From Enterococcus viikkiensis (lineage in GTDB: Bacteria > Bacillota > Bacilli > Lactobacillales > Enterococcaceae), in contig NZ_BJDW01000017.1 of assembly GCF_005405345.1 (NCBI RefSeq), positions 1-51,866 of the forward strand: DNA of 51,866 bases. The letters run 5' to 3'. Shown here one piece after another: positions 1,504-47,533 of this stretch. Each line of letters starts with the position of its first letter. Within the stretch, counting starts at the first letter, position 1. Both the position numbers and the translations under genes were made by a program. The notes under the pieces were generated by a model. That model made no database searches. It saw nothing but the letters and a program-made list of their open reading frames with translations, and was not told the origin of the DNA.

Positions 1504-3423
1504 ATGATTTTATTACAAGCAAATCAAATCGCCCGCTATTTTGGTGCGGATACATTATTTGAAAATATTCATCTGGAAATCGCCAGTAAAGGTCGTATCG
1601 GCTTAGTTGGCCGCAACGGTGCTGGAAAGTCGACTTTGTTGAAGATTATCGCAGACATCGAAGCTCCTGATGCTGGTCAAATCATTAAAAATAAGCAAGC
1701 AACCTTAGGCTATTTGGCGCAAGATACTGGATTGGATTCGAATGAAACTGTCTGGAACGAGATGTTGAAGGCGTTTGAAGGCGTTCGTAAGATGGAAGCA
1801 CGAATGCGTGAAGTGGAGGTTGCAATCGGTGAGACCCCGGAAAGTGAGAACCGTTATGCTTCTTTATTGAAGGAATACGATCAGTTACAACATGATTTTA
1901 ATGATCAAAATGGCTATGGGTATGAAAATGAAATCCGTAGTGTTTTGCACGGATTTAAGTTTGATGAAAGCTTTTATGACAAAGAAATCAGCACCTTATC
2001 CGGCGGCCAAAAAACCCGTTTAGCCCTTGCCCGGATGCTGCTGGTACGACCTGATATCTTGATTCTCGATGAACCAACGAACCATTTAGACATTGAAACA
2101 TTGGCTTGGCTAGAGGATTATTTGCAAAGCTATTCCGGTGCTCTATTAATCGTCTCTCATGACCGATATTTCTTAGATCGGGTCGTAAATGAAATCTATG
2201 AAATTTCTCGCCATAAGATTCGCCATTATACAGGGAACTACTCTCGTTACCTTGATTTAAAAGCTGCGCAATTAGCGAGTGACTGGAAAGCCTATGAAAA
2301 GCAGCAAACCGAGATTGACAAACTTGAAGATTTTGTTGCTCGTAATCTTGTTCGGGCTTCCACCACCAAGCGAGCCCAAAGCCGACGAAAAACGTTGGAA
2401 AAAATGGATCGGCTGGATCGGCCTGATGGCAAAGAAAAATCGGCTACGTTTATGTTTGACATCGACAAAGTTTCCGGCAATGTCGTTTTACAAGTGGAAG
2501 AAGCGGCGATTGGCTATGCCGAAACATTGGCTGAACCGATTGATCTAGATGTACGCCGCGAAGACGCCATTGCGCTAGTTGGACCGAACGGAATCGGCAA
2601 ATCAACCTTGTTGAAATCTTTAATTGGACAGCTTCCCTTCATTAAAGGCGAGCCTCACTTTGGGACCAATGTCTCCATCGGCTATTACGATCAAGGCCAA
2701 GCCGATCTGGATGGCAATAAAACGATTTTAGCCGAGTTGTGGGATGAACATCCAACCACACCGGAAAAAGATATTCGCTCTGTCTTAGGTGGCTTTCTTT
2801 TTAGTGGTGAGGACGTAGAAAAGACGATTCCTTTATTAAGCGGTGGTGAAAAAGCTCGTGTGGCATTAGCCAAGCTTTCGATGAACAAAGAAAATTTTTT
2901 GATTCTTGATGAACCAACAAACCATTTAGATATCGACAATAAAGAAGTGTTGGAAAATGCCTTGATTGATTATCAAGGTACGCTGTTGTTCGTTTCTCAT
3001 GACCGCTACTTTATCAATCGGATCGCCAATAAAGTCATCGAGCTTTCACCAGAAGGTAGCAAACTGTATCTAGGCGATTATGATTATTATTTGGAGAAGA
3101 AACGAGAAGAAGAAGAATTAGCGGAGCTTTTAGCAAAAGAGGAAACGCCAGTTGCTGAACCAAAGAAAAAATTCTATCAAGACAAAGAACAGCAAAAATT
3201 AATTCGTAGTTTAAAACGTAAGATCGAAGCCATTGAAGAAAATTTATCCAACTTGGATGAAAAGATTGATCTGCTGGAAACACAGATGAGCCAGTCGGAT
3301 ATCTTGAATAATCATGTCCAACTGCTGGAATTGACTAATGAGCTTGAAGCAAAGAAAGCTGAGCAGGAAGAACAATTAGCCAGTTGGGAAGAGCTGAGTA
3401 TGGAATTAGAAGAATTCGAATAA
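1504..3423 (+). CDS. ABC-F family ATPase (YdiF-like)
   Basis: A 639-residue protein with two ABC ATPase domains and no membrane segment, the ABC-F layout. Domain 1 has Walker A GRNGAGKS (36-43), signature LSGGQ and Walker B ILILDEPTNHLD. Domain 2 has GPNGIGKS, LSGGEKARVALA and LILDEPTNHLD. Both catalytic glutamates are present. A charged linker with a basic RAQSRRKTLEKM region joins them, and the C-terminal ~90 residues are a predicted coiled coil. ABC-F proteins bind the ribosomal E site and relieve stalls or confer antibiotic protection. The neighbourhood with rex and the C-terminal coiled coil suggest a YdiF-type housekeeping factor rather than a specific resistance protein. Confidence 0.9.
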   Translation: MILLQANQIARYFGADTLFENIHLEIASKGRIGLVGRNGAGKSTLLKIIADIEAPDAGQIIKNKQATLGYLAQDTGLDSNETVWNEMLKAFEGVRKMEARMREVEVAIGETPESENRYASLLKEYDQLQHDFNDQNGYGYENEIRSVLHGFKFDESFYDKEISTLSGGQKTRLALARMLLVRPDILILDEPTNHLDIETLAWLEDYLQSYSGALLIVSHDRYFLDRVVNEIYEISRHKIRHYTGNYSRYLDLKAAQLASDWKAYEKQQTEIDKLEDFVARNLVRASTTKRAQSRRKTLEKMDRLDRPDGKEKSATFMFDIDKVSGNVVLQVEEAAIGYAETLAEPIDLDVRREDAIALVGPNGIGKSTLLKSLIGQLPFIKGEPHFGTNVSIGYYDQGQADLDGNKTILAELWDEHPTTPEKDIRSVLGGFLFSGEDVEKTIPLLSGGEKARVALAKLSMNKENFLILDEPTNHLDIDNKEVLENALIDYQGTLLFVSHDRYFINRIANKVIELSPEGSKLYLGDYDYYLEKKREEEELAELLAKEETPVAEPKKKFYQDKEQQKLIRSLKRKIEAIEENLSNLDEKIDLLETQMSQSDILNNHVQLLELTNELEAKKAEQEEQLASWEELSMELEEFE

Positions 3424-45420: not shown

Positions 45421-46572
45421 ATGACTATAGGAATTGATAAAATCAGTTTTCACGTGCCTAATTACTATCTCGATATGACCGACTTAGCTAACGCGCGCGA
45501 AACTGATCCAAATAAATTTCACATTGGTCTTGGACAAGACCAAATGGCGATTAACCCTGAGACCCAAGACATCGTTACTTTAGGGGCGAGTGCCGCTGCA
45601 AAAATCCTTACTGATGAAGACAAGAAGGACATCGATATGGTCATTGTCGGAACAGAATCAAGTACTGATTTTTCAAAATCCACTGCCGTCACCATACATA
45701 ATCTGTTAGATATCCAACCATTTGCTCGTTCATTTGAAATAAAACACGCCTGCTATGGCGGTACAGCTGCTTTGCAACAAGCACATGATTATGTAAGCCT
45801 GCATCCTGACCGAAAAGTATTAGTGATCGCAGCCGATATCGCTAAATATGGATTAAACAGCGGGGGGGAACCCACGCAAGGTTGTGGCGCTGTCGCAATG
45901 CTTGTAACGAAAGAGCCTCATATTTTAGCCTTTAATAACGATAGCGTCTTTTATTCTGAAGATGTCTATGACTTCTGGCGCCCTGCTGGTCATGACTATC
46001 CTTTAGTCGATGGCCATCTCTCAAATCAAATTTACATTGATTCTTTCACGCGCATCTGGGAACAAAATAAAAAAATGAATCACACAAGTAGTGGAGATTA
46101 CGCGGCTCTTACCTTCCATTTACCTTATACTAAGATGGGTCGAAAAGCATTGCGGGCCATTTTCCCTGAGATGTCGGAGGAAGAACAACAACGTTTAGAA
46201 GCTCGCTATGACGAGGCAATTCTTTACAGCCGGCAAGTTGGTAATCTTTATACCGGCTCACTTTATTTAGGTTTATTATCATTGTTAGATAATAGCCAGT
46301 TAGCTGCGGGAGACAGAGTAGGACTTTTCAGCTATGGTTCTGGGGCAGTCAGCGAATTTTTCTCCATGACCTTGATGAAAGATTACAAAAATTATTTAAC
46401 CTCAGAAAAAAACCGTACTTTGTTGGCGCAACGGAAACGTTTAACCATTCCAGAATACGAAAAAATGTTCAACGAAAAATTACCAACCGATGGAGGTAGC
46501 TATACCTTCTCCGATCGAACTGACTTCGCTATCAATAAAATCGATGGTGATATTCGTTATTACAACAAATAA
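45421..46572 (+). CDS. mvaS: Hydroxymethylglutaryl-CoA synthase
   Basis: 383 residues, exactly the length of E. faecalis MvaS. It condenses acetyl-CoA with acetoacetyl-CoA to HMG-CoA. The catalytic residues fall at the known positions: Glu79 in IVGTES, Cys111 in KHACYGG, and a histidine in LTFHLPYTKMG. The GLFSYGSGAVSEFF motif near the C-terminus is conserved. The ATG at 45421 has AGGAGGAG before it. The longer in-frame extension has no such site and does not match the family. Confidence 0.96.
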   Translation: MTIGIDKISFHVPNYYLDMTDLANARETDPNKFHIGLGQDQMAINPETQDIVTLGASAAAKILTDEDKKDIDMVIVGTESSTDFSKSTAVTIHNLLDIQPFARSFEIKHACYGGTAALQQAHDYVSLHPDRKVLVIAADIAKYGLNSGGEPTQGCGAVAMLVTKEPHILAFNNDSVFYSEDVYDFWRPAGHDYPLVDGHLSNQIYIDSFTRIWEQNKKMNHTSSGDYAALTFHLPYTKMGRKALRAIFPEMSEEEQQRLEARYDEAILYSRQVGNLYTGSLYLGLLSLLDNSQLAAGDRVGLFSYGSGAVSEFFSMTLMKDYKNYLTSEKNRTLLAQRKRLTIPEYEKMFNEKLPTDGGSYTFSDRTDFAINKIDGDIRYYNK

Positions 46573-46582
46573 TTTGATGCAA

Positions 46583-46614
46583 AAGGAGCTGAGATGGACA
46601 CGTCTCAGCTCCTT
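46583..46614. terminator. Terminator of mvaS, possibly also of the minus-strand RNA
   Basis: AAGGAGCTGAGA (46583-46594) pairs perfectly with TCTCAGCTCCTT (46603-46614). ATTT follows on the plus strand and TTTT on the minus, so it can serve both directions, though neither T tract is long. Confidence 0.75.
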
Positions 46615-46982
46615 ATTTACGTATAAACGTTGTCCAGAAGTAGCTTCTGTCACAACCTCTTATTTTTAGGCACAAAAATAGTCTAACAGGTCTAATGGCT
46701 GGGCGTTTGTTTCATTCCAAGTTTCTGGAACATTTACACTCTTTTCTAGGTCTTAAACGTTTTTGTTCTTGTGATTGAATATTCGTCTAAGCCTCACCAT
46801 TAAATAGAGAAATGGTTCTACTGTCTACATCTCTCATCCTGTTAGACCTTGATTCCTTGGTAAGGAGTTATCAAAATCCCTACTTCCTTCCTGCCCTTTT
46901 AGGCACTCTCTCTTGAAATGAATGCCTCCATTCATTTCATGTTGCTTTGATGCTTAACAACTTTAGGGATACTACCCCTTAC
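46583..46982 (-). ncRNA. Candidate structured RNA of about 400 bases, unassigned
   Basis: No coding frame, but a strong minus-strand promoter, a terminator and nested helices are visible. In RNA order: GTAAGG (46976-46981) with CCTTAC (46859-46864), enclosing ATCCCTA (46964-46970) with TAGGGAT (46876-46882), which enclose a 10-bp hairpin GAAATGAATG/CATTCATTTC (46915-46938) and a GCC/GGC hairpin. A second domain is closed by GTCTAACAGG (46838-46847) with CCTGTTAGAC (46681-46690) and contains hairpins at 46795-46815 and 46716-46731. A third hairpin is at 46629-46657, then the terminator. It does not show the conserved cores of tmRNA, RNase P, SRP or T-box RNAs. The ends are estimates. Confidence 0.5.
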
Positions 46983-46988
46983 ACCTAT

Positions 46989-47017
46989 TTTATACCATAT
47001 TCCCGGATTTTTTGCAA
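46989..47017 (-). promoter_or_regulatory. Promoter of the candidate RNA
   Basis: On the minus strand TTGCAA (47012-47017), a 17-base spacer and TATAAA (46989-46994), with TGG just before the -10 making it an extended -10. No minus-strand reading frame follows, so it should produce an untranslated RNA. Confidence 0.65.
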
Positions 47018-47026
47018 GCGTTTGCA
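47012..47026. promoter_or_regulatory. cre (CcpA) site between the RNA and nrdI promoters
   Basis: TTGCAAGCGTTTGCA fits WTGNAANCGNWNNCW at every position. It overlaps the -35 of the minus-strand RNA promoter and ends 4 bases before the -35 of nrdI, so it could repress the RNA and influence nrdI. Confidence 0.55.
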
Positions 47027-47029
47027 TTT

Positions 47030-47058
47030 TTGCTGGCGATTTTTTTTCATGGTACAAT
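47030..47058 (+). promoter_or_regulatory. Promoter of nrdI
   Basis: TTGCTG (47030-47035), 17 bases, TACAAT (47053-47058), with TGG before the -10. Transcription should start near 47065, leaving a leader of about 20 bases. Confidence 0.65.
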
Positions 47059-47083
47059 GTTTTCCATGGAAGGAATGATTTCA

Positions 47084-47533
47084 ATGAATATTTTATATAT
47101 ATCAATTTCAGGAAACACCCGTGCTTTTGTCGAAAAATTAGTATCTTACGCTGCGGAGCAGCATCAAGCAGACGCTACAAACCCACTGATCACTAGCAAA
47201 GAGATCTCTGAGAACAGTCCCTTCGATACAGAAGCGGAAGAATTTTTTACCTTTGTTCCTACTTACCTCGAAGGCGGGAATGGCGTAGACAATGGCGATA
47301 CTGAAATTTTAACTGAAGTCATGCGGGAATACTTGGACTATGGGGCTAACTATCAAAAATGTCTCGGCGTAGTCGGTAGTGGCAATAAAAATTTTAATTA
47401 TCAATACTGTCTCACTGCCAAACAATATAGCGAGGCCTTCGGATTTCCTTTTTTAGCCGATTATGAACTACGGGGGACTGCCAAAGATTGTGAGCGCATC
47501 TATAATTGTTTAAAAACTGCTTTAAAAAGTTAA
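47084..47533 (+). CDS. nrdI: Ribonucleotide reductase flavodoxin NrdI
   Basis: 149 residues, a flavodoxin-like FMN protein that supplies oxidant for the dimanganese cofactor of class Ib ribonucleotide reductase. The FMN phosphate loop is YISISGNTRAFVEKL, with conserved FVPTYLEGGNGVDNGDTEI and VVGSGNKNFNYQYC segments. The ATG at 47084 is 9 bases after AAGGA. The upstream in-frame codons lie over the promoter. It stands alone here: nrdE, nrdF and nrdH are not adjacent, unlike the usual nrdHIEF operon. Confidence 0.9.
   Translation: MNILYISISGNTRAFVEKLVSYAAEQHQADATNPLITSKEISENSPFDTEAEEFFTFVPTYLEGGNGVDNGDTEILTEVMREYLDYGANYQKCLGVVGSGNKNFNYQYCLTAKQYSEAFGFPFLADYELRGTAKDCERIYNCLKTALKS

Follow-up and report, generated by a model that had tools for sequence, protein, structure and literature searches.

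Which kind of gene, if any, lies in the spacer between mvaS and nrdI of Enterococcus viikkiensis? The window, that is, the whole stretch of DNA analysed, was contig NZ_BJDW01000017.1 of this species, positions 1-51,866 (51,866 nucleotides); "the window's genus" is the genus of that genome. A preliminary description had proposed a large structured RNA on the minus strand, outside the catalogued classes and possibly under CcpA control. Covarying helices, a cre box whose position hardly varies across genera and the absence of an Rfam match agree with that proposal. Judged from sequence comparison, the spacer probably encodes a structured RNA of two domains that stands alone; it would be repressed by CcpA and act in trans as a regulator of sugar limitation.

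Both flanking genes lie on the plus strand and were recognized by protein-family scan. The mvaS reading frame runs to 46572 and has HMG-CoA synthase domains; nrdI starts with ATG at 47084 and has the NrdI domain. On the minus strand of the spacer, a cre box and an extended -10 element are followed by a block of ~310 nt down to a U-run. The features were as follows:

47013-47026, minus strand: cre TGCAAACGCTTGCA, a predicted CcpA operator placed across the promoter's -35 region
46989-46999, minus strand: extended -10 promoter, TATGGTATAAA, placed by its position on the window sequence
~46985 to 46671, minus strand: the RNA, ~310 nt, from homology, the 18-sequence alignment and folding (z -5.24)
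46975-46982 with 46860-46867, minus strand: helix P1, closing the 5' domain (46860-46982), from sequence, alignment and fold
46964-46970 with 46876-46882, minus strand: helix P2, from sequence, alignment and fold
46957-46961 with 46941-46945, minus strand: helix P3, 5' domain
46929-46938 with 46915-46924, minus strand: helix P4, 5' domain
46892-46905, minus strand: P5, 5' domain
46872-46889, minus strand: purine-rich strand AAGGAAGUAGGGAUUUUG, highly conserved in the alignment and Shine-Dalgarno-like, followed by UUG and a stop after 10 codons
46838-46848 with 46680-46690, minus strand: long-range helix P6, closing the 3' domain (46680-46848)
46807-46835, minus strand: P7 hairpin with conserved loop (46815-46827), 3' domain
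46794-46802 with 46693-46701, minus strand: helix P8, 3' domain
46725-46733 with 46713-46721, minus strand: helix P9, 3' domain
46671-46679, minus strand: U-run directly after P6, by sequence position
46580-46668, no strand assigned: dispersed repeat with hairpins, outside the RNA, downstream of the RNA and of mvaS

The extended -10 element matched the consensus, as first described; a generic sigma-70 scan of 46300-47300 found no promoter. The 5' end of the RNA was inferred to lie 5-9 nt past the -10 element. The transcript had been described as about 400 bases without a reading frame; long frames are indeed absent, but short ones exist and the RNA is ~310 nt. The terminator hairpin and 3' end as first given fell inside the dispersed repeat and were abandoned. 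The true end is the U-run, into which P6 runs directly and which is probably the terminator tail of the RNA. The nrdI promoter (window 47042-47063) seemed by eye to be of the extended -10 type too (TGGTACAAT). As it lies not far from the cre box, in the window's genus CcpA might make contact with both.

The 310-nt core occurred as a single copy in the window's genome, which contained three matches to the repeat, including 46580-46668. In the closest relative 24 of 25 matches, and in another relative 11 of 12, were to the repeat only; the remaining one in each was the RNA core. The repeat was also seen in loci L002 (~1475-1560) and L003 (~1500-1570). One of its hairpins was terminator-like with variable self-complementary sequence, and one was formed around AGAAGNAGCTTCT. 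The repeat may be a terminator-associated element.

The folding energy of 46671-46986 on the minus strand was -90.8 kcal/mol, compared with -65.0 (sd 4.9) for shuffled sequences (z -5.24). None of 100 shuffles was as stable. The minimum-energy fold included P1, P2, P6 and the inner hairpins. The three long-range helices noted earlier are P1, P2 and P6, all conserved among homologues. The earlier coordinates were exact for P2 and fell inside a longer helix for P6, and the 3' arm of P1 was about 2 nt off. A wider stretch gave z values of -6.9 on the minus and -6.1 on the plus strand; since these are similar, folding energy alone cannot pick the strand. Conserved G-U pairs, including one P1 pair that was GU in 18/18 sequences, become A-C mismatches on the plus strand, which indicated that the minus strand is the functional one. 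A plus-strand transcript, whose z was also low, was rejected: the promoter, cre, U-run and conserved G-U pairs all fit the minus strand.

Covariation was investigated with 18 sequences of the window's genus, aligned over the RNA length, and 22 sequences from other genera. The helices covaried, P6 and P7 strongly. For the window's genus, the scoring covered 7 helices with 48 pairs, and 96.4% of the cells were paired. Two-sided changes occurred in 11 of the 48 pairs compared with 5.2 in shuffles, and the covariation score was 0.222 compared with 0.168; 0/500 shuffles reached either value, in a comparison that ignores kinship among the sequences. Sliding the partners by 1-3 columns lowered the paired share to 37-57%. 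Further pair types did not exceed the shuffles, which reached the real value in 263/500 cases for the window's genus and in 81/500 and 353/500 for other genera. P2 was off by one column in four sequences (L017-L020) and was scored there as unpaired; a first alignment had put P3 and P4 wrong in some rows. In the other genera, two pairs of P3 varied as CG 13/UA 8 and AU 11/CG 7/UA 2.

P1 and P2 were formed in all 22 sequences from other genera, as AAUUCCCA with UGGGAAUU, and no two-sided change was found there. Because both helices are nearly invariant in sequence, covariation says little about them. The evidence by change for P1 was one pair in the window's genus (GC 12, AU 4, unpaired 2). For P2 it was a between-group difference, seen by eye, of UCCCUA/UAGGGA against UUCCCA/UGGGAA. 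Rival local hairpins (GGG/CCC at the 5' end and GUAGGGA/UCCUUAC) were possible in 18/18 sequences of the window's genus and were the choice of RNAalifold there. P1 and P2 are tentatively preferred, since they form in 22/22 sequences outside the genus and GUAGGGA/UCCUUAC appeared weaker there by eye.

In the other genera, a further helix of 11 pairs, S1 (UCAUA.GAAUU with AAUU.UAUGA), uses the AAUU of P2 and crosses that helix. The two would then form a pseudoknot, with P2 shortened, or act as a switch. When a Vagococcus copy was folded plainly, S1 appeared together with P1. One S1 pair was mismatched in 20/22 sequences; a second was mismatched in 8 of 17 (those with letters at that position). 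The 5' domain of the window's genus differed from the rest in having the extra P4 and P5, and no S1 was seen in it. The first 150 nt of L190, partly upstream DNA, folded with a z of 0.59, and nothing was found in them.

For the 3' domain, 74 distinct sequences were parsed; parsing failed at the strand that follows P1 in 8 locus ids (including L184) and at P6 within 210 nt in another 8. To test the pairing of P6, arms were searched for freely and identically in real and permuted pairs, using 55 representatives of the 75 distinct sequences. The mean helix score was 28.6 for the own partner and 16.2 (sd 0.71) for permuted partners, and 0/2000 permutations reached the real value. An earlier version with 40 of 74 sequences gave 27.8 compared with 15.4 (sd 0.84), its arms being pre-selected for a helix, which favoured real pairs. 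Counting against the test, the own partner was strictly best in only 16/55 cases in the free search and 14/40 in the earlier version, as related sequences share arms. In four Vagococcus copies (L101, L102, L155 and L158), the P6 arms lay far apart and no P6 was found within 210 nt; a 15-pair helix was found within 330 nt in L101 and L102, and a gene with a LysM-type start lay upstream. In P7, inside the 3' domain, the loop U(G/A)GACA..AGAAC was conserved in many copies. Forty-five distinct sequences shared U(G/A)GACA..(G/A)AAC or a close form on a varying stem, which had 6.2 leading pairs compared with 3.05 (sd 0.23). The loop pattern was absent from 34 locus ids.

The distribution of the RNA was determined at several ranks. 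DNA similarity placed the core in 18 of the 20 genomes of the window's genus, and some of these matches were partial. Two covariance models were used: R1, of the 5' domain, and R2, built from other genera. R1 found 47/105 genomes of the family at E<=0.01, and R2 found 55/105 at E<=0.05. By hand count, the union came to 64/105 genomes in 11 of 17 genera; it leaves out G028, whose match L184 was false by eye, and not all matches in it were inspected base by base. No accepted R1 or R2 match was obtained in the other 41/105 family genomes. A permissive R2 search of the other 40 unmatched genomes of the family, G028 aside, gave two weak matches, both false by eye. The weak R2 matches L184, L186 and L187 looked by eye like a protein-gene region and were dropped.

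In a sample of the order, R2 found 56/395 genomes: 40 of the same family, 15 of the family that includes Vagococcus and 1 of a third. In a sample of the class at E<=0.001, 7/398 genomes were found, all from these first two families. R2 is weak for the window's type: it found 8/20 genomes of the genus, and the window's own copy scored E 0.005, which does not reach the class-search threshold. For that type, counts obtained with R2 alone are minimum values, since R2 misses most of the window's genus. Up to four copies per genome were found; several of the 15 genomes of the second family are probably Vagococcus, among them G111 (probably V. acidifermentans), which R2 matched four times, and G271 (probably V. 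elongatus), matched three times.

A core pattern of 27 fixed bases with <=3 mismatches, which misses the window's genus, found 34/395 genomes of the order, and its reversed control found 0. Named carriers included E. avium, E. raffinosus, E. devriesei, E. pallens, E. casseliflavus, E. gallinarum, E. dispar, E. asini, E. aquimarinus, Tetragenococcus halophilus, T. muriaticus and Vagococcus fluvialis. No E. faecalis or E. faecium was among the 36 matched contigs, for which an exact pattern would miss diverged forms. Genome G020, the only one of its genus in the family set, gave no R1 or R2 match; we presume that it may be E. faecalis. The lack of an accepted match in 41 family genomes, this one among them, could explain why the RNA did not turn up in the portions covered of RNA catalogues made in E. 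faecalis and E. faecium. The window's RNA had no match in plasmids, and a scan of viral contigs with one pattern found none. The UNVERIFIED wastewater "Listeria phage" record OR846971.1 (L204) carried the RNA sequence of L169 at 3001-3150, by eye. Because this record has QueT- and NusG-like frames, it was taken as enterococcal chromosomal DNA with a label that is probably wrong.

The promoter architecture was compared over 86 distinct upstream regions, of which 77 start directly at the GUAAGG strand and 9 are of a longer type. The cre sequence TGNNANCGNTNNCA with <=1 mismatch was found in 71 of the 77 regions, as would fit a CcpA-regulated RNA, and in 48 of 2261 control windows. The extended -10 pattern was found in 73/77 and 50/2264, respectively. 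The controls came from the same loci, and many of the 77 regions are from related species and hence non-independent; L184 was excluded beforehand, and L080, mis-anchored by the pattern, was scored as a miss. The cre box started 42-44 nt before the GUAAGG strand in nearly all regions and 33 nt before it in three. The CcpA control first suggested thus gained a candidate operator, TGCAAACGCTTGCA in the window, at a nearly fixed upstream position across genera.

The nine regions of the longer type had neither cre nor extended -10 at the usual place. In this type (L161-L165, L178-L180 and L183), the 5' strands of P1 and P2 stood apart from P3 and the core, by eye. In 260 nt of upstream sequence of eight of these loci, a cre-like box and GUAAGGA-like and AAUUCCCA-like strands were seen further up, suggesting that an insert splits the halves of the 5' domain.

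The preliminary description had recognized no tmRNA, RNase P, SRP, T-box or riboswitch core, and the Rfam searches bore this out. No Rfam 15 family matched the RNA at gathering thresholds, either in the window or in any of 37 complete loci (17 + 20); the four gathering matches in the 20-locus set were M-box, TPP and PreQ1 elements elsewhere in the loci. Permissive searches gave best E values of 0.14 (window region) and 0.054 (L061, other strand) and, for 16 short representatives, one miRNA match (E 0.49), all far below gathering. The models of 6S RNA (RF00013) and RNase P RNA type B (RF00011) did not match the RNA; the genome's own genes for these lie at G000:C14:15779-15972 (72 bits) and G000:C10:21389-21761 (349 bits). 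Some copies of the RNA adjoin usp genes, but the Lacto-usp model (RF01710) gave no gathering match, including in the usp-adjacent L181 and L182. Lacto-usp RNA is shorter than the present RNA.

Few catabolite-controlled regulatory RNAs are, to our knowledge, known in lactic acid bacteria. In the parts covered, nothing that could be equated with the RNA was found in the sRNA mapping of E. faecalis (PMC3166299), the sRNAs of E. faecium (PMC5593968), the RNA maps of both species (PMC7724050), the Grad-seq study (PMC10117718) or a structured-RNA survey that lists Lacto-usp RNA (PMC2864571). A term search of the available text of a second survey (PMC8040213) found no mention of enterococci. The EF1368-1369 sRNA of E. 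faecalis was rejected as a counterpart, being described as antisense to EF1369 (PMC3166299, in part). In the portions of the literature covered, no catabolite-controlled regulatory RNA of enterococci besides 6S was found. On sequence grounds, the RNA looks like a real, uncatalogued gene recurring in Enterococcus, Tetragenococcus and Vagococcus.

How might the RNA work? When sugar is plentiful, CcpA would sit on the cre box and block the promoter. Once the preferred sugar has run out, transcription would begin and the RNA would act in trans. Most likely it would offer a purine-rich strand or loop to pyrimidine-rich sites in mRNAs or C-rich small RNAs. Counting against this antisense mode, strict conservation fits the binding of a protein or ligand at least equally well.

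Three known RNAs share parts of this logic; none of the comparisons places the present RNA in one of their families. RsaI of Staphylococcus aureus is also named RsaOG. It is a trans-acting RNA of 111 nt that pairs with its targets and is repressed by CcpA at abundant glucose and derepressed on starvation (PMC9266662, in part). Its CcpA logic is the one proposed here, but the present RNA has ~310 nt and two domains; it gave no Rfam match, and the comparison with RsaI is one of description. In Bacillus subtilis, CcpN and to a smaller extent CcpA repress SR1 (205 nt) under glycolytic conditions; this RNA carries an ORF for a conserved 39-aa protein and is described as confined to Bacillales (PMC8464778, in part). 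The present RNA would likewise be under catabolite repression and has a possible ORF, but one of 8-16 codons and no conserved peptide. RoxS is a C-rich small RNA that is not known to occur in enterococci. It is sponged in B. subtilis by RosA, a CcpA-controlled RNA of 225 nt with three G-rich regions (PMC8464778, in part). RosA resembles the present RNA in the CcpA control proposed here, a likeness of description.

The RNA could instead bind a protein, with a logic like that of 6S RNA: repressed by CcpA, it would accumulate as sugar ends and titrate the protein through the 5' fold and the P7 loop. Long stretches are nearly invariant across genera, and in P7 a covarying stem carries a conserved loop, much as a recognition loop would be presented. 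The 6S genes of lactic acid bacteria often carry cre over the -35 region too, an arrangement that is probably inhibitory (PMC8414754, in part). The layout here is the same, but E. viikkiensis has a separate 6S gene and the 6S model does not match the RNA. Up to four copies per genome and no match in 41/105 family genomes are unlike a housekeeping RNA, and 34 locus ids lack the loop pattern. This explanation is possible but rather unlikely.

The purine-rich strand raises the question of whether ribosomes engage the RNA. Across copies the strand is mostly AAAGGANG, and its conserved part AAAGGANGUGGGAAUUUG resembles a strong Shine-Dalgarno sequence; the complement of the anti-Shine-Dalgarno sequence is AAAGGAGGUG. 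The strand may equally be a sticky strand for C-rich RNAs. After the Shine-Dalgarno-like AAAGGANGUG, UUG follows ~9 nt on and a stop 8-16 codons later, in or near the 5' strand of P6. A ribosome engaged on this mini-ORF would disrupt P1 and P2 and be in competition with P6, which would tie termination or stability to translation. All 70 distinct sites caught by the search had UUG and the stop, and the frame had exactly 10 codons in 18/18 loci of the window's genus (L004-L021) despite indels. Yet 13 locus ids escaped the search pattern, which itself demanded a start codon and the purine strand; AUG or GUG never served as the start, and so short an open stretch is not unusual by chance. Two loci (L172 and L173) lack the strand, and L173 also lacks UUG. 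Relative to the window's genus, the frame in most others is displaced by one, which leaves no conserved peptide, and no conserved small protein like that of the dual-function sRNA SR1 was found. We consider a ribosome-engaging RNA improbable. Doubtful, too, is a combination of these elements into one device, in which a pseudoknotted 5' domain and the Shine-Dalgarno-like strand with its UUG ORF would be coupled to a P6 terminator enclosing the second domain.

A leader or attenuator acting in cis on a downstream gene is very unlikely. In the window's genus, nrdI and mvaS flank the RNA, which is directed towards the 3' end of the convergent mvaS, so there is no gene to lead and no same-strand gene directly downstream. 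Such a gene is present in several other genera: in the copies examined from seven other genera of the family, a diacylglycerol kinase (DAGK_cat-domain) gene follows in the same direction, and queT is often divergent on the opposite side. By eye, promoter-like sequences lie between the U-run and the kinase gene. The annotated E. gallinarum record has no feature over the RNA. In one other genus the RNA follows an FTHFS gene (four loci), and some Vagococcus copies adjoin Usp or LysM genes. One or two representatives of each neighbour were domain-scanned, the others being assigned by eye. Second, diverged copies were seen in two genomes of the window's genus, L181 (G010:C2:550317-550439) and L182 (G009:C1:510323-510446). 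Both carry an extended -10 and, 33 nt upstream, a cre-like box; a universal stress protein (Usp) gene follows closely on each, an arrangement that would suit a leader. The downstream genes vary between lineages, and the diversity of neighbours (nrdI/mvaS, QueT/DAGK_cat, Usp, FTHFS and LysM) speaks for an RNA acting in trans and makes it unlikely that all copies work in cis.

Repeat or spacer DNA paired by chance is hardly credible: 46580-46668 is a dispersed repeat, but the core is single-copy in the window's genome, conserved between families and covarying, and its promoter architecture is fixed.

If the RNA were after all one device, closure of the 3' domain would depend on a ribosome or other ligand on the 5' domain. 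Such an RNA would represent a new catabolite-controlled class of ribosome- or ligand-sensing RNA and not a plain antisense regulator. A stand-alone regulator acting in trans, the preferred reading, would give a testable link from sugar limitation to RNA-based control in many enterococci and Tetragenococcus, for which two family models are ready.
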